DNA of 20,560 nt, from positions 1 through 20,560 of the IMG/VR virus record IMGVR_UViG_3300044633_002029; one strand, given 5' to 3'. The stretch is from a virus. Position 1 is the first letter of the stretch; the number at the start of each line of letters is the position of its first letter. The notes under the pieces were generated by a model. It worked only from the letters and a program-made list of their open reading frames with translations, ran no database searches and was not told the DNA's origin. The position numbers and the translations under genes are program-made. Positions 9,501 to 19,999 of the stretch are shown one piece after another.

Positions 9501-10642
9501 GTAATGGCTCCACGTGGGTGTCATCTGCTCCACCAATTACATTACCAACCCAAACAAGTAATAGTGGAAAATACTTAACTACTGATGGTACTAATGCATC
9601 ATGGTCAACTATTGTAACCGGTCTACAAGTAACTGCTATTAAAACCGCAGCGTATACCGCAGCAGTTAACGATTTAGTTAGATGTAATACTACATCAGGT
9701 GCAGTTACTATTACGTTTCCAGCTTCACCTACCGACGGTGCAGTTATTGGTATTATTGATGTTACTAAAACATTTGCTACTAATGCAGTTACTGTATTGC
9801 CAGGTAGTGGTGCTACTATCGAAGGCGATACATCTGCTATATTAGATATTAGTGGTACATATCTTACATTTATATATGTGTCATCAACTACTAATTGGAG
9901 AATGCAATTAACACCGTCGCCTCCTGTTACAGGAACCGGCTCTGGAAATAACGTGCTTGCAACTAGCCCGACTATGACTACATCAATCCTTACAGATTCA
10001 ACTAGTTTTAGTTTACTTAACACTACTGCAACTACTATTAACTTTGCAGGTGCTGCTACTACTTTAAATATTGGAGCAAGCACTGGAACCTTAACATTAA
10101 ACAACTCATCAGTTACCATTGGCGCAAGTGCAGGAACGCTAACTATAAATCCATCTACTGTAGTAGGCACACAAACAACACAAGCATTGTGGAATACTAC
10201 TGCAACTACTATTAACTTTGCAGGTGCTGCTACTACATTAAACATTGGGGCAAGCACTGGAACTACTTCTATTAAAAATAATACATCAGTAACTGGAAAC
10301 ATTTATGCAACCGGTGATGTATACTCATCATATTCTGATATTTTATTAAAGACCGTAACTGGTAAGATTACTAACGCATTAGATTCGATTTGTGCAATTG
10401 AAACATTTTATTATAGACCAAATGAGTTAGCACTTTCGTTAGGAATTAATGATGACGGTATTAAAGTAGGTGTAAACGCGCAGAGCGTACAAAAAGTTGC
10501 ACCAGAAGTAGTCGGTCCTAGTGCAATAGATGAAGAATTTTTAACTGTACAGTACGAACGATTAGTCCCGTACTTAATAGAATCAATAAAAGAATTAAGA
10601 GAAGAGGTTGCAATGCTAAAGGAGAAATTAAATGGCGTATAA
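6503..10642 (+). CDS. long modular tail fibre with C-terminal S74 chaperone domain
   Basis: A 1379-residue fibre. The N-terminus ('YGTLPVANGGTG') matches the 80-residue protein at 2702. The shaft is built from four copies of a module of about 145 residues (about 103-249, 337-483, 770-916 and 1014-1156). Each runs from 'LPTQTSNSGKYLTTDGT' through 'TLPASPVNGAIVG' to 'VSGTGTGSIVYATSPT'-type ends, with linkers such as 'LAANNVLLGNGTSALQAV' between them. The last 100 residues are a Peptidase S74 / endosialidase-type intramolecular chaperone: 'YSSYSDILLKTVTGKI', 'NAQSVQKVAPEVV', 'VQYERLVPYLIESIKELREE', with a C-terminal coiled coil. In that family the chaperone assists trimer folding and then cleaves itself off at a conserved Ser. 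The 'SD' near residue 1278 is the likely site (inference). The ATG follows AAAGGAA by 10 bases. Confidence 0.9.
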   Translation: MKNLSSVLRGTNYGTLPVANGGTGVITSTGSGSVVLSTSPTLVTPILGTPTSGNLSNCTNAIGYSLKSATTSIDVSSATAPSTGQVLTATSSTTATWQAINGLPTQTSNSGKYLTTDGTSASWATINAGLNVTTSKTANYTALAYDLVNANSTAGAFSITLPASPVNGAIVGVMDTAGTFAINSITVLPGSGATVESDTSVILDINGTYITFVYIAASTNWKVQGTPSATVSGTGTGSIVYATSPTLISPALGTPVSGNLANCTFPTLNQNTTGTAAGLSATLAVGSGGTGATTLAANNVLLGNGTSALQAVAPGTSGNLLTSNGTTWVSSSPPITLPTQTSNSGKFLTTDGTTASWATLNAGLNVTASKTANYTALAYDLVNANTTAGAFSITLPVSPVNGAIVGIMDTAGTFATNSVTVLPGSGSTIESDTSVVLDINSTYITFVYISASTNWKIQSTPSATVSGTGTGSIVYATSPTLVTPLLGTPTSGTLTNCTGYTFANLSTKPTTLSGYGITDAVLSSTIGAASGIAPLGSDSKISATYLPSYVDDVLEYANLAGFPATGETAKIYVALNTNAIYRWTGSAYIEISPTAGNADTATKLATARSISTTGDATWTVSFDGSANATAAITLANVVTAGTGTKVTYNAKGLITGSTTLTVSDITDIATNYQAKHANLTTISSLSTSTTGLIVMTNGVASLDTSTHLISGGALGTPTSGDLANCTNAVGYSLKSATTSVSISAATAPTTGQVLTATSSTTATWQAINGLPTQTSNSGKFLTTDGTNASWATLNAGLNVTATKTASYTAVAYDLVSANSTAGVFNITLPASPVNGAIVGIIDIAGTFATNNVTVLPGAGATVQSDTAVVLDINNTYVTFVYIAASTNWRVQNSPSRTVSGTGTGAVVYATSPTLVTPLLGTPTSGTLTNCTGYTYANLSGTTPTWDQNTTGTAAGLSATLAVASGGTGSTTLTANNVLLGNGTSALQAVAPGTTGNLLTSNGSTWVSSAPPITLPTQTSNSGKYLTTDGTNASWSTIVTGLQVTAIKTAAYTAAVNDLVRCNTTSGAVTITFPASPTDGAVIGIIDVTKTFATNAVTVLPGSGATIEGDTSAILDISGTYLTFIYVSSTTNWRMQLTPSPPVTGTGSGNNVLATSPTMTTSILTDSTSFSLLNTTATTINFAGAATTLNIGASTGTLTLNNSSVTIGASAGTLTINPSTVVGTQTTQALWNTTATTINFAGAATTLNIGASTGTTSIKNNTSVTGNIYATGDVYSSYSDILLKTVTGKITNALDSICAIETFYYRPNELALSLGINDDGIKVGVNAQSVQKVAPEVVGPSAIDEEFLTVQYERLVPYLIESIKELREEVAMLKEKLNGV
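6809..9975 (+). repeat. four diverged copies of a ~440-bp fibre module plus two linker copies
   Basis: Copies of the coding module begin at about 6809, 7511, 8811 and 9542 and run about 430-450 bases each. All start with a conserved 'acaagtaatagtgg' context. A second unit of about 200 bases, coding for 'NQNTTGTAAGLSATLAV' onward, occurs at 7309-7510 and 9339-9541 and leads straight into modules two and four. The copies differ mainly at third codon positions, so they are old duplications kept under protein-level constraint. The first three modules are closest to each other; the fourth is the most diverged. Confidence 0.85.
10022..10263 (+). repeat. 68-bp direct repeat with 174-bp period in the fibre shaft
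   Basis: Bases 10022-10089 and 10196-10263 encode the same segment 'TTATTINFAGAATTLNIGAS' and its continuation, and differ at only about three positions. A shortened, diverged copy ('SSVTIGASAGTLTI') lies between them. Low divergence suggests a more recent duplication than the large shaft modules. The repeat sits just before the S74 domain. Confidence 0.8.
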
Positions 10643-11717
10643 AGTAGGTGCTAATAATGCATTAATTGCCGACGAAAAAGGAGTATATCTCCCAAAATTT
10701 ACAACAAGCACTCGACCATCTAGTCCAGTTCAGGGACAGGTAATTTATAATACCGATACCGGATTTTTAGAAATGTGGGATAATTCATTAGCCGGATGGA
10801 CTGTAGTTTCTACTACATCAGCACTTCTTGTTCCATTTTTATATCGAACTATCATCACAACTGGTTATGTAATGGCTGGTTATCAAAGCACTAGTCCTTG
10901 GAAAAATGTTAATAAAATGGCACACGCAACTGACGTGTGTTCTAACTTAGGCGATTTATTACCTTTGGCTGGTGCGTATTGTGGCGGCGGGGCTAGTTTA
11001 ACTAAAGGATTTATATGGGGCGCGGATAACGCATGGCCAGGAACTACTACTAATATTGTTAGTTTTAATATGGCTTCAGACTCATCGGTGGCTACTATTT
11101 GGACTATGCGAAATTCAAGAAACGACTGTGAATCAGTGTTTAAAGAAACATTGTATTCATACATCTTTGGCGGCGGTCCTACCGACGTTGATGTATTTAA
11201 TATGACTACTGAAACTGTATTGGGAGCTCAAGGACTTACTTCAATGGGAGGTCAGCCAAGTTATCAATACGGAGTTAGCGCGATAAGCGACGAAACTAAA
11301 GGATTTGTATGGGGTGATGCTAATCAAAAACTTACTTTTGGAACTGGTGCCGCAGCGACGATTTCTACTGGTGCTATATCTGCGTCAAATTCTCAACAAA
11401 AAGGTATAAACAGTAAATTGGGAAAAGGTTACTGCGGGAATGAAGGCGACTACAATGGGGGTTATAATTTGCGCAGATGGCAATTTAGTACCGAAACTAG
11501 TTTAGGTACAGTTGCTAAACCAGTTGGTAATAGCGGAGAAGAAAACTTTGATATGGGACAAGCTCATCAATACATGTATGGAATGTACGACGGCGCTCAA
11601 AACAATCGCGGTTGGAGATTTAGTTATACAACGGAAACTGGAACCGAATTAGGTTCTGGTAGTATTAGAACAGGTGTTCCTGGTGGTAGTTCCGGTGCAT
11701 GTGCGTGGAAGGGGTAA
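10632..11717 (+). CDS. phage fibre/adhesin protein, paralogue 1 of a tandem pair
   Basis: A 361-residue protein overlapping the fibre gene by 11 bases; AAAGGAGA lies inside the fibre's end. Residues about 22-60 are the common phage fibre docking module 'TSTRPSSPVQGQVIYNTDTG' followed by 'LEMWDN..GW'. The rest carries recurring units of about 45-50 residues with motifs like 'VFNMTTETVLG', 'WQFSTETSLG' and 'WRFSYTTETGTELG', separated by Gly-rich turns. This is suggestive of a beta-propeller or kelch-like fold (inference from periodicity). The C-terminal 100 residues ('GYCGNEGDYNGGYNLRRW' to 'TGVPGGSSGACAWKG') are very similar to the next gene, whereas the middle (about residues 110-250) diverges. 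Likely a virion receptor-binding or fibre-tip protein; the exact role is not known. Confidence 0.75.
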   Translation: MAYKVGANNALIADEKGVYLPKFTTSTRPSSPVQGQVIYNTDTGFLEMWDNSLAGWTVVSTTSALLVPFLYRTIITTGYVMAGYQSTSPWKNVNKMAHATDVCSNLGDLLPLAGAYCGGGASLTKGFIWGADNAWPGTTTNIVSFNMASDSSVATIWTMRNSRNDCESVFKETLYSYIFGGGPTDVDVFNMTTETVLGAQGLTSMGGQPSYQYGVSAISDETKGFVWGDANQKLTFGTGAAATISTGAISASNSQQKGINSKLGKGYCGNEGDYNGGYNLRRWQFSTETSLGTVAKPVGNSGEENFDMGQAHQYMYGMYDGAQNNRGWRFSYTTETGTELGSGSIRTGVPGGSSGACAWKG

Positions 11718-11812
11718 ATTATGGCATTTATTAGTGCAACTACTGATGTGTTTAATACATTTGGTGTGAAGTTTCCAAAATTTACAACAAGCACTCGACC
11801 ATCTAGTCCAGT
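10692..11812 (+). repeat. 38-base perfect direct repeat shared by the tandem paralogues
   Basis: Bases 10692-10729 and 11775-11812 are identical over 38 positions, within the codons for the 'FTTSTRPSSPV' module. Elsewhere the two genes differ freely at silent sites even where the proteins agree. The perfect match therefore points to local gene conversion or recombination at this module boundary rather than protein constraint alone. Confidence 0.85.
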
Positions 11813-12770
11813 ACAAGGTCAAGTAATTTATAATACTGACAGTGGAAAATTAGAACTTTGGGATAATTCAACTAGAGGTTGGGTAGAAGTTACAACTGCT
11901 GCAAGAACATTCATGTATAATACAATTATTACTACTGGTTATGTAATGGCCGGATATCAAAATAGTAGTCCATGGAAAAATGTTAATAGGATGGCACACT
12001 CAACTGACGTGTGTACTAATTTAGGTGATTTGCTTTCATATGCAGGAGGTTATATTAGTGGTGCATGTAACTTAACACGTGGGTTTGCATTTTGTACAGG
12101 TGATGTAATGGCTAGCAGTAACTTAACTGCAGCATTTAATATGGCTACTGAAACAGGAGCCGGTACTAATACTAACTGGAATACTAGAATTAGTAGAGAC
12201 ATGCCAGGTACAACATTCAAAGAACATTTAATGGCATACATTATGGGCGGCGGGTCAACTGATGTCGATGTATTCAACATGACTACAGAAACTATGTTAG
12301 GACAGCAAAACCTAACTGCTGATTCCGGTACCGGTACTGCAATCAACGACGAAAAGGTTGGATATGCATACGGCGGAACTAACGCTCAAAAAATAACATT
12401 TGCAACTGCATCTATTACTACTACATCCGTATCTGGTTCACACGGTCAACAAAAGGGTATAAATAGCAAAACAGGCAATGGCTACTGCGGAAATGAAGGC
12501 AGCTACAATGGGGGTTATAACTTACGTAGATGGCAATTTAGTACTGAAACTAATTTAGGTACAGTTGCTAAACCAGTTAGTAACAGTGGAGAAGAAAACT
12601 TTGACATGGGACAGGATCATCAATATATGATGGGGTGTTATGACGGCGCTCAAAACAACCGAGGTTGGAGATTTAGTTATACCACCGAAACTGGAACTGA
12701 ATTAGGTTCTGGTAGTATACGCACCGGAGTACCTGGTGGTAGCTCTGGTCATTGCGCATGGAAAGGATAA
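11721..12770 (+). CDS. phage fibre/adhesin protein, paralogue 2 of a tandem pair
   Basis: A 349-residue protein starting 3 bases after paralogue 1, with GAAGGGG as ribosome site. It has the same architecture: 'TSTRPSSPVQGQVIYNTDSG' at about residues 19-38, then 'YVMAGYQNSSPWKNVNRMAH', recurring 'FNMATETG', 'VFNMTTETMLG', 'WQFSTETNLG' and 'WRFSYTTETGTELG' units, and a C-terminus nearly the same as its neighbour's. The two differ mostly in the central third. Where one has 'GGGASLTKGFIWGADNAWPG', the other has 'SGACNLTRGFAFCTGDVMAS'. Such a conserved frame with a variable centre would fit two alternative host-binding surfaces on a shared scaffold (inference). Confidence 0.75.
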   Translation: MAFISATTDVFNTFGVKFPKFTTSTRPSSPVQGQVIYNTDSGKLELWDNSTRGWVEVTTAARTFMYNTIITTGYVMAGYQNSSPWKNVNRMAHSTDVCTNLGDLLSYAGGYISGACNLTRGFAFCTGDVMASSNLTAAFNMATETGAGTNTNWNTRISRDMPGTTFKEHLMAYIMGGGSTDVDVFNMTTETMLGQQNLTADSGTGTAINDEKVGYAYGGTNAQKITFATASITTTSVSGSHGQQKGINSKTGNGYCGNEGSYNGGYNLRRWQFSTETNLGTVAKPVSNSGEENFDMGQDHQYMMGCYDGAQNNRGWRFSYTTETGTELGSGSIRTGVPGGSSGHCAWKG

Positions 12771-12779
12771 AGGAAAATA

Positions 12780-13544
12780 ATGAGTGATTTAGTATCATAC
12801 ACAAGTAAAGATTTAATAACAACAACTACAGATTTAACTGAATATCAAAAAGATTTAATTGCATACTCATTAAGTCGCGATTGGGCAATGCCCGAATTTA
12901 AAGCTAAACATTTTGTAGGTCAAGCACAAATTACACCGTATGCTATTATAAAGCAATACTTGTTAGAATTAAATAGCAGAGAAGGCGCTATTGAAAATTT
13001 AGAATACGAGACAAGAAAACTACAGTGTCAACTAGCAATCGAAATTGAAAAACGAGATACTGCAGAAACTTTAGGCACTAAGAGTTTACACGAAGTTGAA
13101 ATTATTCATTTAGACCGGTTATTAAAGAAGAACTTACATAAAATCAAAGATGCATATAGTGAACGTCAGATATTCATTAAGTTGTTAGATGATATTAATA
13201 GTTCCGACGAAGGCAAATTACCAAATGGTGAACTTATAATGGACGCAATTAAAGATCCTGCAAAAGAAGAACTATTAGAAAAAGAATACTGGACTTTACG
13301 ATTAGCTAAACAAACTGCGTTAGATATGATTGCATATGGTAGAGCAGGAGTTGGAAACATGGAAGCTGTAGGTATGCTACCAGAAGATCAACAAATCGAA
13401 GTAATGAAATTAGCATGTGATTATTATGTACGTAACGAATACCGAACACAAGAATTATTATCATCAGTTAATGAAAACTTCCAGTTAGGTCTTAATCCGG
13501 AAAAATTAACACAACATTTAAAATTTAATCCGCAGGAGAAATAA
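12780..13544 (+). CDS. hypothetical phage protein with helical/coiled-coil centre
   Basis: A 254-residue soluble protein that I do not recognise. It has no signal peptide or membrane segment. From about residue 52 to 145 it is highly charged and helical with heptad-like Leu/Ile spacing ('YLLELNSREGAIENLEYET', 'IIHLDRLLKKNLHKIKDAY'). The C-terminal part has 'DMIAYGRAGVGNMEAVGMLP' followed by another charged helix. It is unlike the Gly/Thr-rich fibre proteins around it. A strong AAAGGA site precedes it, and its stop overlaps the next start (TAATG). Its place between the adhesin pair and a fibre-assembly-like gene suggests a chaperone or structural accessory protein, but this is position-based inference only. 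Confidence 0.7.
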   Translation: MSDLVSYTSKDLITTTTDLTEYQKDLIAYSLSRDWAMPEFKAKHFVGQAQITPYAIIKQYLLELNSREGAIENLEYETRKLQCQLAIEIEKRDTAETLGTKSLHEVEIIHLDRLLKKNLHKIKDAYSERQIFIKLLDDINSSDEGKLPNGELIMDAIKDPAKEELLEKEYWTLRLAKQTALDMIAYGRAGVGNMEAVGMLPEDQQIEVMKLACDYYVRNEYRTQELLSSVNENFQLGLNPEKLTQHLKFNPQEK

Positions 13545-14266
13545 TGTACATTTTATTTAAAACTGTCGATACAAAGACAATGGGATTAGTTAAACGATAT
13601 GGTCAATTTGTTGATTATGTAGTTGGGTTTGTTGACGATTCTATTTCCGAAATTATTGATTATTCAATTCTTAATGCTACTGTAATAGATGAAGATACTG
13701 CAAATGGTTGGATGTTTGCTACTAGTTACGGTCCTACTATATCAGTTAGGCCAAATACTTCACAAAGCGATCAACTACAAATCATTAATTCAACAGAACT
13801 GTCTAATGAAAAAGTTAAATATACTTTAACTGATGCTAACATATCAAATGCAGTAAAGTTTTTAAAAGCATATATGCAAAAGGTGCTTAATGACACTTAT
13901 GATAAACGATTTGATAAACTGTCACCGGGAAATAATTTAGAAGTAGCAACTTGGGCTACTCAATTATTAGAAGCACAACAATTCATAATTGATCCTACAA
14001 GTCCTACGCCGTCACTAAATACTTTAGCTACTGCTAGAGGGCTAACAGTAGCAGAATTATCACAACGCATTGTTGCCGCTTCTGACAACTATACCCAACA
14101 AACTATAGCATTATTAGCTAATAAGCAGATTGTACAAGATGAAATTTACGCGTGTAATACAATTACTGATGCAAATGTATTACTACATTCTAGGTTTCAA
14201 ATTAATATGCCATATAAGCTACAATTAGAGTTAGGAATTACGGAAGGGTCAACATTAAATTTATAA
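13544..14266 (+). CDS. tail-fibre assembly-like protein (DUF4376-like C-terminal half)
   Basis: A 240-residue protein starting on the stop codon of the previous gene, with CAGGAGA upstream. Residues about 127-200 resemble the DUF4376-type segment of phage fibre-assembly proteins: a Trp-containing helix 'EVATWATQLLEAQQFI', a Pro-rich link, 'SLNTLATARGLTVAELSQRI', then 'YTQQTIALLANKQIVQDEI'. The first 125 residues are of mixed alpha/beta character and are unrecognised. It closes the structural block, so a fibre-maturation chaperone is plausible. Family assignment is from memory of the pattern and only moderately secure. Confidence 0.6.
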   Translation: MYILFKTVDTKTMGLVKRYGQFVDYVVGFVDDSISEIIDYSILNATVIDEDTANGWMFATSYGPTISVRPNTSQSDQLQIINSTELSNEKVKYTLTDANISNAVKFLKAYMQKVLNDTYDKRFDKLSPGNNLEVATWATQLLEAQQFIIDPTSPTPSLNTLATARGLTVAELSQRIVAASDNYTQQTIALLANKQIVQDEIYACNTITDANVLLHSRFQINMPYKLQLELGITEGSTLNL

Positions 14267-14273
14267 CTAATTT

Positions 14274-15890
14274 ATGTTCTCAATACCAATCAATCCTAAA
14301 CTTACACTACAACAATTTGAAACGTTTTATAATTTTTGTCAAGAATACAAAGATTACATTTATGACTTATACTTTACTTGCCGCATGCCGCCTTTTATAC
14401 AAGACGCAATGGGCGATGTTATTTTAAGTAACGAGTTTGCTCCAATCGAAACTGCACTACATATACAGGAGTCACTAGGGATTCCTGTAAGTGCAACATT
14501 CAACAATATCTTAATACGACCTTCTCAAGATACATTAGATCTGTTTATACAGAACTTTCAACATTTATACGATGCAGGTGTACGTTCTGCTACTATTCCA
14601 CATACACACTGGGTAGCTACTGGACAAATACAAAAACACTTTCCTGAGTTACTAATAAAAAATACAATTCTACGGAATGTATCTAGAGCTAATGAAGTTG
14701 CAGAACTTGCAAAAGCTGGTTTTCATTATATTAACATTGATCGAGATTTGATGCGTGATAGAGATACATTAATCCAAATTGATCGTGTACGAAAACAATT
14801 CAATGTTAAAATTGCATTGTTGTCTAATGAAGGTTGTGCTGGAAATTGTCCAATGATGGATGAACATTTTCAGTTTAACAACACTAGAATAGGGTCGAGT
14901 CCGCAATACTTCAATGATGTTATTAGTAGAGTTAGTTGTCCTAAGTGGGAATATACTGATCCTGCAACTCCTCTTAAGACTGCAAACTTACCTCCGTGGA
15001 AGGAAGACTGGGACGAATTACTGTCATATGTTGATGTTTTTAAAATGCATGGCAGAGAATCACATACTAGAATGTTTGAAACTATGGATATTATCAAACG
15101 ATATGCAAACAATGAACCGATACTGTTTAATACGTTCGACGAATACTTACAAGAAACTAATCTAGAAAATAAACCAATAGCTGCATGGCGTGAAAAAATT
15201 AAAAATTGTAAATTTGATTGCTGGGATTGTAATTTTTGTGATAACGTATACACAGCTAAAGCAAATCAACAATCACATCCATTAATCATTGCAGTAGTTA
15301 ATGAATTAGTAACTTCGGTTAATTATCCGGTTACTACAAATATACCTGGATTAACTTCTCCTAGAGTACAACAATTATTACACGGACTAGCAAAACACTG
15401 CAATAATTATCTTGAAATTGGATCTGCTAGTGGTGCAACTGCCCATGCAGTTGCTAGTTCTGGAATTAATACAATATGTGTAGATAACTGGAGTGTAAAC
15501 ATACAACCTCAAAGCGATGCATTTGAATTACCCGATAATACATTTGATTTATTTAATAAGAATATGATTGACTTTAAGAATGTTACTGTGTATAATAGTG
15601 ATTTACTAGCTGTAGATACTTTATTAATTAATAACATTGATTTATTCTTTTATGACGGACCACACGATTATATCACTACAGCTAATGCAGTTAAACATTA
15701 TACTAGGTCACTTGCTAGTCACGCAATACTAATTTTTGACGACGCTAATTGGGAAGAAGTAGTAGCAGGTGCTAACGCAGGTATTGATGATGCAGGGTTA
15801 ACTGTATTGTATAGTAAGAAAATGTTAAACAGTTTAGAAAACAGTTCTATGTGGTGGAACGGATTATATATTGTAGTAGTAGCAAAATGA
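14274..15890 (+). CDS. peptidase-U32-like protein fused to class I SAM methyltransferase
   Basis: A 538-residue fusion. Residues about 1-330 look like a U32-family TIM-barrel protein. The hallmark stretch 'LLSNEGCAGNCPMMDEH' (183-199) and other cysteines (C222 in 'SCPKW'; C312, C316, C319, C322) could ligate an iron-sulfur cluster, as is known for U32 proteins in tRNA/rRNA hydroxylation and ubiquinone synthesis. Residues about 355-538 are a Rossmann-type methyltransferase: motif I 'YLEIGSASGATAHAV' (379-393), acidic 'CVDNW' (402-406), 'IDLFFYDGPHDY' (455-466) and 'AILIFDDANWEEV' (484-496), reminiscent of Methyltransf_24/TylF-type O-methyltransferases. The substrate is unknown. It is the first gene of the cassette, 7 bases after the structural block, with no recognisable Shine-Dalgarno site. 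A protease role is unlikely, since U32 members often are not proteases. Confidence 0.75.
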   Translation: MFSIPINPKLTLQQFETFYNFCQEYKDYIYDLYFTCRMPPFIQDAMGDVILSNEFAPIETALHIQESLGIPVSATFNNILIRPSQDTLDLFIQNFQHLYDAGVRSATIPHTHWVATGQIQKHFPELLIKNTILRNVSRANEVAELAKAGFHYINIDRDLMRDRDTLIQIDRVRKQFNVKIALLSNEGCAGNCPMMDEHFQFNNTRIGSSPQYFNDVISRVSCPKWEYTDPATPLKTANLPPWKEDWDELLSYVDVFKMHGRESHTRMFETMDIIKRYANNEPILFNTFDEYLQETNLENKPIAAWREKIKNCKFDCWDCNFCDNVYTAKANQQSHPLIIAVVNELVTSVNYPVTTNIPGLTSPRVQQLLHGLAKHCNNYLEIGSASGATAHAVASSGINTICVDNWSVNIQPQSDAFELPDNTFDLFNKNMIDFKNVTVYNSDLLAVDTLLINNIDLFFYDGPHDYITTANAVKHYTRSLASHAILIFDDANWEEVVAGANAGIDDAGLTVLYSKKMLNSLENSSMWWNGLYIVVVAK

Positions 15891-16492
15891 AACGATTTCC
15901 TATATTATCAGCCGATGTATTTTATAAACAAAATATCGGAACACCTGAACAACGATCTCAATTATTAAAAGAAGCATGGAGTGTAAATCAATGCACTCCT
16001 GAAAGTATTAGTTTTTCAAACCACGGCTGTTGGCGTTCATTTTTTGAATATTCTGACATTAGTTGGCTAATGGCTGAAATTAAAGATAGCATTAACGCAG
16101 CGACTGGATATTATATTGAAACTGATCCTATATATAAAACAAAAACAGAGTCATTTTTAGATGCAGAAATAAAATACTGGACAAACATCAACAATCCAGG
16201 TAGTAAGAATAACTTACACGAACATAAATTACATCATTATGTTGCAGTGTATTATGTACAAGGTAGAGATACTGGAGAAATTATATTTCATAATCCTATG
16301 AATCTAACTGAAGGGTGTAATCCGTATGCTCCTTTTGTTAGTCCAATTTCTTTTAAACCAAATGACGGTGACTTGCTAGTTTGGCCAGCATGGTTACCTC
16401 ATGAAACTGAACCTAATAAATCAACTAGACATCGCATTAATATTGCATTTAACATACGGTTTTCTTGTCCACAACACATAAACTATGACTAA
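15887..16492 (+). CDS. 2OG-Fe(II) oxygenase (2OG-FeII_Oxy_5-like)
   Basis: I place the start at 15887, not the in-frame ATG at 15851. The later ATG overlaps the preceding stop as ATGA, and the 12 residues upstream lie inside the methyltransferase coding region. The 201-residue protein has a C-terminal double-stranded beta-helix like phage and marine-bacterial 2OG-FeII_Oxy_5 proteins: 'YWTNINNPGSKNNLHEHKLH' (97-116) with candidate metal ligands H111/H113, 'VAVYYVQG', then 'NDGDLLVWPAWLPHETEPN' (159-177) with H172 as distal metal ligand, and R183 in 'RHRINIAFNI' as candidate 2-oxoglutarate-binding Arg. Such enzymes hydroxylate proteins, nucleic acids or small molecules; the substrate is unknown. 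There is no Shine-Dalgarno site, so it is probably translationally coupled to the upstream gene. Confidence 0.8.
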   Translation: MKRFPILSADVFYKQNIGTPEQRSQLLKEAWSVNQCTPESISFSNHGCWRSFFEYSDISWLMAEIKDSINAATGYYIETDPIYKTKTESFLDAEIKYWTNINNPGSKNNLHEHKLHHYVAVYYVQGRDTGEIIFHNPMNLTEGCNPYAPFVSPISFKPNDGDLLVWPAWLPHETEPNKSTRHRINIAFNIRFSCPQHINYD

Positions 16493-17226: not shown

Positions 17227-18258
17227 ATGGATTACTCATTACTGTTTAAAGACCTCTCATTTGTGTTAATGATTGGGTTTATTATGATCAGTGCAGGGTT
17301 AGCAAAAGAATTTAAATTATTTGCACCCGCAGTTTCATTGATAAAAAATACTGTTAAAAATAACAGAATAATAATTATACTAATAAGTGCAGTCGGTGGT
17401 ATATTACCAATCGAAGGTCGTGTAGTAGTTTCTGCAGGTTTCCTTGATTCAGTATCACTACCGACTAAGAACAGAGAAAAACTAGGTATTATCGACTTTA
17501 TGTCAACTCATCATTATTACTTATGGTCGCCACTTGAAAAAACTGTTATCTTACCAATGGCAGCTTTTGGTTTGTCATATGTAGACTGGCTTACTTATGT
17601 TTTACCTATCCTGTTAGTTAGTCTTGTTTACATTAGTTGGTATATTTGTACTAACATACACGATGCTGATATTTACATACCTAATGTGAGTTTTAACCTT
17701 TGGGAGTTGTTATATCAATCATTTCCAATGTTTGTTGCTATTGGATTATACATTTACGGTACTGATAAATTAATTTGCTTTGGCGCGTTAGCATCATACT
17801 ATGTTATTATCACTCGATATGTTAATATCTTAAAATATATCAACTGGAATTTAATTATAATTGTTGCAAGCGTGATTATCTTAAGCAATTATATAAAACT
17901 GCATAGCGGAGAACTAGAAATGTTTATCAAGTCAACTTCGTACAATATGGATACAATATATGGATTTATTGGAATTTCAGTAGGTGCATTTATGTTTAGC
18001 TTTATTACAGGTAGCAGTGGTAAATTTATTGCACTTGCGATTGTGCTATCTCAACTTTTTGGCCATGAGTACTTCTTATGGTTTTTTACACTAGAATACG
18101 CTGCGTATTTAATCAGTCCTACTCATAAATGCGTTGCAGTCGGTAATCAGTATTTTGGAACTACACTATCAACCTATTACAAAGCCCTTATTACATGGGG
18201 TGTATTATTAACATTAACTACAGGAATTTTAACTTATTATGAGATATTTAATTTTTAG
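17227..18258 (+). CDS. polytopic inner-membrane protein, DUF401-like permease
   Basis: A 343-residue hydrophobic protein with about nine to eleven membrane segments (for example residues 8-24, 47-66, 122-141, 163-178, 181-198, 207-221, 244-262, 284-298, 319-337). Two re-entrant-type motifs recall the DUF401 family, which belongs to the ion-transporter/ArsB-NhaD-like superfamily: 'GGILPIEGRVVVSAG' (57-71; family form is like LLPMPGGALxSAP) and 'LISPTHKCVAVGNQYF' (295-310), plus 'FITGSSGKFIAL' (259-270). The length is slightly short for the family. The substrate is unknown. It starts 4 bases after the previous stop and overlaps the outer-membrane receptor gene by 20 bases, so the two are almost certainly co-expressed. 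Together they would span both membranes of a Gram-negative host (inference). No strong Shine-Dalgarno site is seen. Confidence 0.7.
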   Translation: MDYSLLFKDLSFVLMIGFIMISAGLAKEFKLFAPAVSLIKNTVKNNRIIIILISAVGGILPIEGRVVVSAGFLDSVSLPTKNREKLGIIDFMSTHHYYLWSPLEKTVILPMAAFGLSYVDWLTYVLPILLVSLVYISWYICTNIHDADIYIPNVSFNLWELLYQSFPMFVAIGLYIYGTDKLICFGALASYYVIITRYVNILKYINWNLIIIVASVIILSNYIKLHSGELEMFIKSTSYNMDTIYGFIGISVGAFMFSFITGSSGKFIALAIVLSQLFGHEYFLWFFTLEYAAYLISPTHKCVAVGNQYFGTTLSTYYKALITWGVLLTLTTGILTYYEIFNF

Positions 18259-19999
18259 TATATCATTATTACTGTCATTTCCATGCTTTTCAGAAATAGA
18301 AATTGACATTACAGAAGGTATTGAACTACTAACCTCTACAGTTAACGGTACTAACTATGAAGTTCAACAACAGTTAACTCCATCTACATTTGCTAGTTCA
18401 ACTCCAATACAACAAACTTCTCCCGGTTTGAAAAGTCCATACATTGGTGCATTTACTGGAAACCAAGTTGATCAAACTATTAACGGAATTAGAATGAATA
18501 ATTCGTTATTCCGCTCTGGTCCTAATCAGTATTACAGTTGGGTACCAGATGCATTTACTAAGTCAGTAGGTGTATCAGACGGTGGTAACATTGGCGGTAC
18601 TATTAATCGTGAGATAGGAGTTGACTCTTCACACGTTGGCGGTACATTTGATTCTGCATTAGGATGGATACAATCTGCATCATATAAAACTAGCAAATAC
18701 GGCATTGGATTTAGTGGTACTGATTATGGTAATGTAGAAACTGCAGATGGTACAATTCCACATAGCTCTTATAATAATAAAGCTGCAATTGGAGAATACA
18801 ACTGGAATGATAATAATCGATCAGTATTTGTGTTTTCTAATTCAGGCGACTTAGATCGTACAGATAAATGGAATGGCGGGTACCGAATTTCAGGATTACA
18901 AAAACCTACCCCATATACATGGTTAGACCAATCTTATTACAATTTCAATCACACTATGAGTTATGATAAATTTCATTTAACTACAGGTTATCAAAAATTT
19001 AGTGAAGAAATATTAGATGGCACTAAATTTATTAATACTGATCTAAATCAATACACAGTTAACGGTGATTATTTCTTAACTAATAACCTTAGTTTGTATT
19101 CTGCAAATACAGTTGAAGACATTACATATGATAACGGAGTTGCACAATCAGCAACTAATAAAAATCCTCAAATTTCAAATGATCTGTACACTACTACAAA
19201 GCAAGGTGTTCGATGGAAGCGCAATGGACTAATTAACACAACAATAAGCGGCGGGGCTAAAGAAGTTCAAGCAACTGATGTTTTAAGTTTTGTAGATCCA
19301 GAAGGGTCTGTTATTTTTGATCACAATGGGTACTTTGCAAGTTTTGACAGCAGTGTAAATGCTCCATCTTATGCAAACTTAAAACAATCGCAAACTACTG
19401 GTAGAGGAAAAAGTATTGCAAATCCTAATTTAACTGAAGAACGCGCAAATACATTTAAAATTGGATATTCTCTTAATGGTTTATATATTGATGTGTATAG
19501 AAAACTAGTAGACAATGTAATTAATTCTAAAACTGTTGCTAAAAATACATATATGCCAGTTAACTTTGGTACTGCTACAGTTAATGGCGGGACTATTGGA
19601 TATACTAACTCATCGTTGTTTAATACGCTATTTGGTATCAATACACGACTTAATGTTACGGATAGCTCTATTTCTAAACTAACTGGCGGATACGAACCAA
19701 TCACTAAAGTATCTCCATTTACTGGGTTTATTAGAGTGAACTATAACAAAGTTTGGAGTGAGTTTAGTTACCAAGCACCTGATCATGATATGTCTGTTGC
19801 CGACCTAGATGATGTTAGAACATATCAGTATGCAAAAGGTTATAAATTAGTTAACATTGGGTATACTGATAATGTCTTCAAGCAATTTGAATATACAGTA
19901 GGTATTAACAATTTATTAGATAACAATGGACGAATTTTAGGTTCATCAGTAAATGTTCCTGAAAGAAGTGCAGTATTAAAAGTAAGATATAACTTCTAA
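18239..19999 (+). CDS. TonB-dependent-receptor-like outer-membrane protein
   Basis: A 586-residue protein. Residues 1-18 form a signal peptide (MRY, hydrophobic core, then 'CFS' before E19). Residues about 45-128 are a plug domain: 'GLKSPYIGAFTGNQVDQTIN' (63-82), 'GIRMNNSLFRSGPNQYYSW' (83-101) and 'GGNIGGTINREI' (115-126), matching the TonB-dependent receptor plug pattern. The barrel follows, with the family's 'NPNLTEERANTFKIGYSLNG' segment, 'FASFDSSVNAPSYANL' (the 'gFRaPtl' region), and a C-terminal 'GINNLLDN...VPERSAVLKVRYNF' ending in Phe, as needed for outer-membrane insertion. In the family such proteins import siderophores, vitamins or glycans using TonB. Differences here are the small size (families are mostly 650-800), the short plug and no clear TonB box. 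Base composition is like its neighbours. It overlaps the DUF401-like gene by 20 bases. Confidence 0.85.
   Translation: MRYLIFSISLLLSFPCFSEIEIDITEGIELLTSTVNGTNYEVQQQLTPSTFASSTPIQQTSPGLKSPYIGAFTGNQVDQTINGIRMNNSLFRSGPNQYYSWVPDAFTKSVGVSDGGNIGGTINREIGVDSSHVGGTFDSALGWIQSASYKTSKYGIGFSGTDYGNVETADGTIPHSSYNNKAAIGEYNWNDNNRSVFVFSNSGDLDRTDKWNGGYRISGLQKPTPYTWLDQSYYNFNHTMSYDKFHLTTGYQKFSEEILDGTKFINTDLNQYTVNGDYFLTNNLSLYSANTVEDITYDNGVAQSATNKNPQISNDLYTTTKQGVRWKRNGLINTTISGGAKEVQATDVLSFVDPEGSVIFDHNGYFASFDSSVNAPSYANLKQSQTTGRGKSIANPNLTEERANTFKIGYSLNGLYIDVYRKLVDNVINSKTVAKNTYMPVNFGTATVNGGTIGYTNSSLFNTLFGINTRLNVTDSSISKLTGGYEPITKVSPFTGFIRVNYNKVWSEFSYQAPDHDMSVADLDDVRTYQYAKGYKLVNIGYTDNVFKQFEYTVGINNLLDNNGRILGSSVNVPERSAVLKVRYNF

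Follow-up and report, generated by a model that had tools for sequence, protein, structure and literature searches.

The gene at 14274..15890 (+ strand) of the window, i.e., the 20,560-nucleotide stretch of viral DNA analysed here, specifies a real, conserved and uncharacterised phage protein, for which we propose the design of a dicluster, methyltransferase-fused U32 variant. The reading frame starts with ATG and comprises 538 aa plus a stop codon; the strand opposite to it is full of stops. A U32-type TIM-barrel domain with a Cys-rich tail (residues 1-335, 14274..15278; assigned by Foldseek, VIA and hhalign) is followed by a class I SAM-dependent methyltransferase domain (residues 346-538, 15309..15887). 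All domains and motifs discussed lie on the + strand. The initial annotation had pointed out three motifs, NEGCAGNCP (185-193), a cysteine cluster from C312 to C322, and EIGSASG (381-387), and all of them are located precisely there. It missed C222 and H198, which are as invariant as the cysteines of its motifs (160/160).

The fusion was initially considered unusual. This view needs correction: the protein belongs to a conserved family of T4-like cyanophages which is present at full length in 123 records, and thus is no singular event. Residues 46-538 match phrog_1458 (E 7.5e-156, 521 bits, PHROGs), a family whose length equals that of the fusion. The cyanophage homologues carry the label T4-GC 354 in the older cyanophage annotation and, among the matches listed, are annotated as 'hypothetical protein'. 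The family of which the window protein is a member is known by number only, without a function. All 123 cyanophage records found by tblastn cover at least 80% of the query, with identities below 60% (looser threshold); cyanophage homologues are 41-45% identical to the window protein over the full length. IMG/VR contributes several hundred further relatives. With the gp8 baseplate gene as a marker we counted 429 T4-like cyanophage records, and therefore about three in ten (~29%) carry the fusion, both counts being redundant and inflated by near-identical isolates. The conservation data given below are from an alignment of 160 family members about 41-68% identical to the window protein. In Prochlorococcus phage P-SSM3 (L087:5968-7688) the gene is distributed over two frames, and no CDS has been annotated there.

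An origin of the gene from a host was considered and rejected. The two matches in genome contigs, one in a MAG of Euryarchaeota UBA439 and the other in a Dehalococcoidia MAG, are phage contigs in bins. This is evident from their phage-type neighbours, T4-GC homologues in both contigs (L174, L175) and tail genes in L175. Probably both are cyanophage-type tail-module contigs which were mis-binned into GTDB MAGs. When 292 genomes of the archaeal phylum were searched with the phage profile, only the binned phage contig was retrieved. A search of plasmids returned nothing, and models of defence systems gave no match.

The assignment of the N-terminal half to the U32 type, made at first from the letters alone, is borne out by fold and profile comparisons. 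The AlphaFold2 model of the full-length protein, computed with an alignment of 52 sequences (window and IMG/VR), has a mean pLDDT of 89.1; the N-terminal half modelled alone has 83.6. With the N-terminal model as the query, U32 structure Mk0906 (5d88) ranks first in the PDB both by Foldseek (E 8.5e-6) and by VIA (Z 16.8 at an rmsd of 3.0 over 218 aligned residues). No other TIM-barrel family came out ahead of it, the outcome which the initial annotation had named as speaking against its reading. An MTHFR-like barrel, the next fold at Z 13.3, was rejected. A radical-SAM reading of the C-x3-C-x2-C spacing was set aside as well: U32 is the best-matching fold, and the barrel has already ended where the motif occurs. 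That radical-SAM proteins are absent among the fold matches listed excludes nothing by itself.

At the sequence level the relationship is remote. PDB sequence searches with either half gave no meaningful match. No Pfam model matches the N-terminal half, and when the window protein and 48 family members were scanned singly against PF01136 only noise was obtained and the cut-off was not reached. Single-sequence hhalign comparisons with UbiU and UbiV gave nothing useful. Profiles did. The N-terminal profile aligned to a TrhP/UbiU-type U32 profile with E 8.9e-6; a chance match was rejected since 15 column shuffles and the reversed profile gave E values of 0.14-0.84. In this alignment C188 is placed on C170 of TrhP, and FKMHGRES on LKIEGRTK of TrhP. 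By this pairing K257-M-H-G-R-E262 (15042..15059) is the counterpart of KIEGR in E. coli TrhP and UbiU, a motif which follows the last strand of the core; K257, G260 and R261 are invariant across the cyanophage, cellular and enterophage sets. In addition, an indirect profile link connects the phage domain to seven-Cys cellular proteins (E 9.9e-18) and those to TrhP-type U32 proteins (E 7.7e-17).

The direct profile match and the link via cellular homologues which pass the PF01136 cut-off make membership in the U32 superfamily secure, and we regard it as virtually certain that the N-terminal half is a divergent member. Membership in the canonical hydroxylase group is not secure because the protein scores below the Pfam cut-off and possesses neither the CX6C spacing nor Glu162 of TrhP. 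In the column aligned to the latter, position 181, Ser is found in 150/160 and Ala in 10/160 members; with this essential Glu replaced the chemistry may differ from that of TrhP. In summary, the window protein shares with TrhP, RlhA, UbiU and UbiV (PF01136) a common fold, profile homology, the K-x-x-G-R motif and the first two cysteines of the cluster. It differs from them by its sub-threshold PF01136 score, the CX3C spacing with His198, an extra four-Cys tail, the absence of an equivalent of Glu162 and the methyltransferase fused on.

UbiU and UbiV, which function in hydroxylation, each have one [4Fe-4S] cluster with four Cys ligands; the canonical U32 cluster motif is CX6CX15-16C plus a fourth Cys (PMC6747719). 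The window protein does not keep this motif. In its place we find C188-x3-C192-x5-H198-x23-C222 and a separate tail, C312-C322. The core motif N-E-x-C188-x3-C192-x5-H198 (residues 185-198, 14826..14867) occurs as NE.C...C.....H in 160/160 members, as does C222, the third core cysteine (14937..14939), and C312-x3-C316-x2-C319-x2-C322 (15207..15239; CKFDCWDCNFC in the window protein), the proposed second Fe-S site. Thus, positions 188, 192, 222, 312, 316, 319 and 322 are Cys and position 198 is His without a single exception. Such conservation of seven cysteines is beyond chance, with Cys accounting for only 2.1% of residues. The remaining four cysteines (22, 36, 376, 402) vary among family members. 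The stretch 291-330 is modelled with low confidence (pLDDT 58-68).

The pattern extends beyond the cyanophages. C-x3-C-x5-H, C222 and the exact CX3CX2CX2C spacing of the tail are kept in 8/8 cellular homologues. In the U32 proteins of enterophages H198 is replaced by Cys with the same C-x5 spacing. A His/Cys exchange at a fixed position next to two cluster cysteines is the behaviour expected of a cluster ligand. Judged from these sequence patterns the U32 part very probably binds at least one Fe-S cluster, and the presence of two is likely. C188, C192, H198 and C222 would hold a core [4Fe-4S] cluster; the ligands of the other cluster would be C312, C316, C319 and C322.

The C-terminal half, read from the beginning as a Rossmann methyltransferase, is shown by sequence and fold to be a class I methyltransferase; it has the fold of O-methyltransferases, its SAM motifs are intact and three acidic residues are invariant. 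PF13578 is matched with E 1.4e-7 and 32.8 bits, above the cut-off of 26.3. The best VIA fold matches are TomG (Z 17.9), SafC (17.0), MycF (17.0) and TrmR (5zw3; 16.9), the latter tied with many other O-methyltransferases at Z 15.4-17.9. In the SAM-binding motif E381-I-G383-SAS-G387 (15414..15434) both G383 and G387 are present in 160/160 members, and so is D404, the acidic residue after strand 2. Putative metal ligands are D461 (15654..15656) and D489-D490-A-N492 (15738..15749); D461, D489, D490 and N492 each are conserved in 159/160 members, the remaining one having a gap. D461, D489 and D490 would correspond to the metal triad of COMT/MycF-type O-methyltransferases. The domain resembles the metal-dependent enzymes TomG, SafC, MycF, COMT and TrmR in fold (Z 15-18), SAM motif and, putatively, acidic triad, yet differs from them as a C-terminal fusion without a sequence-level match in the PDB. 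The two halves of the protein are conserved to very different extents: 95/335 positions of the U32 part are at least 98% conserved in the 160-member alignment compared to 19/193 in the methyltransferase.

A search of 400 Chloroflexota genomes uncovered standalone bacterial homologues of the N-terminal domain with E values down to 4e-31. Two of these (L213 and L215; the same genes with more flanking DNA are L223 and L224) score above the cut-off of PF01136. These seven-Cys U32-like proteins (L208-L213, L215-L224) share with the window protein all seven cysteines, His198, K257/G260/R261 and the CX3CX2CX2C tail. They differ in that they have no fused methyltransferase and that the Dehalococcoidia copies are neighbours of reductive-dehalogenase-like genes (L217-L222; of two such genes scanned Pfam recognised one, the others were identified by their common N-terminal sequence). 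In three of these six Dehalococcoidia-type loci an O-methyltransferase gene (PF00891) directly precedes the U32-like gene. This methyltransferase family is another one than that of the fused domain, and the three loci resemble each other and thus are not independent. A DAHP synthase gene (PF00793) adjoins two unrelated cellular homologues, L217, which is one of the six, and L223.

With the L223 protein as a query a third homologous group came to light, the U32 'peptidase' which T4-like phages of enterobacteria encode. These proteins have N-E-F-C...C-x5-C, a counterpart of C222 (in all six aligned) and a C-x4-C-x3-C-x2-C tail. The Tevenvirinae proteins (p000v, LC53, PM2 and others) are like the window protein phage-borne, with a U32 core and a four-Cys tail. 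They differ from it as standalone proteins above the PF01136 cut-off with a Glu near the position of the TrhP Glu, and their genes reside in a nucleotide-modification locus (arabinosyl-cytosine), often together with a chorismate mutase. A CM_2 chorismate mutase gene follows the U32 gene, either immediately or with a few small ORFs in between, in 5/8 enterophage loci (L228:6809-8319, L229:5989-7898, L230:6001-7576, L231:5956-7358, L234:2309-3714); four were identified by Pfam and the fifth by a profile built from those four. Mosigvirus p000v has a different small ORF in this place, and Marfa has none there. Chorismate mutase makes prephenate. A thymidylate-synthase-like gene also lies beside the U32 gene in this locus.

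The cyanophage fusion gene sits among tail genes, away from nucleotide genes. In the window it is preceded on the + strand by homologues of T4-GC 351 (tail-adhesin-like, 11721..12770), T4-GC 353 (12780..13544) and T4-GC 352 (13544..14266). Where at least 3 kb of upstream DNA is available, those of 351 and 353 are present in 127/129 family loci; where it is at least 0.9 kb, that of 352 is present in 135/150. Two peculiarities of the window were observed here. The T4-GC 351 homologue is one of two tandem, clearly related adhesin-like copies (10632-12770, the other copy at 10632-11717), and the order of the 352 and 353 counterparts (12780-14266) is reversed compared to cultured cyanophages such as P-HM2 and P-SSM4. 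Downstream follows a 2OG-Fe(II) oxygenase gene (15887..16492, + strand; PF13759 E 9.9e-16), homologues of which occur in 57/172 family loci and adjoin the fusion gene in about 49. Further on, 17227-18258 codes for a hydrophobic membrane protein of 343 aa (phrog_14035, E 2.2e-76) with homologues in 68/172 family loci. The region 18239-19999, in the tail region, codes for a protein of 586 aa with a signal peptide and a TonB-plug-like segment (PF07715, E 0.13, below the cut-off); none of the 172 family loci contains a homologue, and the PDB gave no sequence match. The tail-module neighbourhood is weak functional evidence because gene order is in general well preserved among these phages and because in S-ShM2 a dozen genes are positioned between the fusion gene and T4-GC 353. 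A CM_2 chorismate mutase was absent from eight cyanophage-type records, while that of the positive control LC53 was found. The cyanobacterial host has prephenate of its own.

How might the product of this gene operate? We propose that its product is a bifunctional phage enzyme composed of an Fe-S U32 barrel and an O-methyltransferase. The barrel would place an oxygen atom on a ring carbon or another unactivated carbon without O2, in a chemistry like that of UbiU/UbiV and, genetically, of TrhP/RlhA, with prephenate or a relative as the partner. The attached methyltransferase, probably assisted by Mg2+, would then O-methylate the new hydroxyl to yield a methoxy group. As candidate substrates we consider small aromatic compounds, nucleotides or RNA bases, and also some part of the tail-adhesin module encoded next to the gene. 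In the UbiU/UbiV route hydroxylation is likewise followed by O-methylation. For tRNA it has been reported that formation of 5-hydroxyuridine by the TrhP-dependent pathway needs prephenate and that TrmR then methylates the product; in three eukaryotes TrmR is joined in one protein with TrhO, another enzyme producing 5-hydroxyuridine (PMC6599085). The presence of related U32 genes beside genes for O-methyltransferase, DAHP synthase or chorismate mutase is consistent with prephenate-linked hydroxylation and subsequent O-methylation.

Several observations were counted against hydroxylation followed by methylation: the missing Glu162, the lost CX6CX15-16C spacing, the lack of a chorismate mutase in the eight cyanophage-type records, the different family of the PF00891 neighbours, the setting among tail genes, and the fact that the 5-hydroxy-dCMP (5-hodCMP) of RB69-type phages is ascribed to an enzyme of the thymidylate-synthase superfamily and not to the U32 protein (PMC13390438). 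Taken together with the arguments in favour, i.e., U32 homology, Fe-S-type cysteines, recurrent shikimate-pathway and methyltransferase neighbours, the logic of UbiU/V and TrhP-TrmR, and the TrhO-TrmR fusions, this analysis makes it somewhat probable that the U32 part carries out hydroxylase-type chemistry. It would give roughly an even chance that hydroxylation and then O-methylation befall one and the same substrate, as the initial annotation had suggested from the fusion. The complete proposal, a two-cluster U32 enzyme (3 Cys + His; 4 Cys) with O2-free hydroxylation and O-methylation in the same chain in oxygenic hosts, is tentative and less likely than not.

The main competitor holds that each domain has a molecule or step of its own and that they are joined for co-expression only, the U32 part being an Fe-S enzyme of another chemistry and the methyltransferase operating by itself. 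The very unequal conservation of the halves, the absent TrhP Glu and the standalone state of the cellular homologues speak for such a separation; the full-length fusion in all 123 phage records and the recurrence of methyltransferase genes beside cellular homologues speak against it, and we consider it rather unlikely. The other readings name a substrate. They are specific forms of the sequential reaction, and the probabilities assigned to them overlap with that of the latter. Modification of the adhesin module of the virion, whose genes (T4-GC 351-353) lie directly ahead of the fusion gene, would alter tail-fibre chemistry or host binding; this reading gains from the near-constant presence of 351 and 353 homologues in loci with sufficient flank. 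It loses by the general maintenance of tail-gene order and by S-ShM2; further, we know of no U32 protein which acts on proteins by hydroxylation or methylation of this sort. We view it as improbable.

Even less probable, and to the same degree, are two nucleic acid substrates. A tRNA wobble enzyme, in effect TrhP and TrmR in one chain, would produce 5-methoxyuridine and tune phage translation. TrhP is a U32 protein, TrmR a COMT-like O-methyltransferase with VIA Z 16.9 to the C-terminal half, and the TrhO-TrmR fusion is on record (PMC6599085), but the fold score does not set TrmR apart from many O-methyltransferases, Pfam recognised no RNA-binding domain, and the gene is situated among tail genes. 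Alternatively, a DNA nucleotide might be modified, e.g., to 5-methoxycytosine, in the manner of the 5-hydroxycytosine loci of the RB69 type. Mosigvirus phages of this type indeed carry 5-hydroxy-dC derivatives (PMC13390438), and the related Tevenvirinae U32 gene, often with chorismate mutase, is part of the arabinosyl-cytosine locus by a thymidylate-synthase-like gene. Against this stand the ascription of 5-hodCMP to that other enzyme superfamily and the distance of the cyanophage gene from nucleotide genes.

A subgroup of U32 proteins, common to phages and Chloroflexota and distinguished by an additional site of four cysteines, is hereby described, and U32 and chorismate mutase emerge as an unexplained pair inside a phage cytosine-modification locus. 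If the proposed reaction sequence is true, it would amount to a kind of methoxy modification so far unseen in phages, and the dicluster U32 design would be common to standalone bacterial proteins and the RB69-type U32-chorismate mutase pair. When read as a dicluster U32 enzyme with an O-methyltransferase, an anonymous, widespread gene of ocean viruses becomes a testable enzyme.
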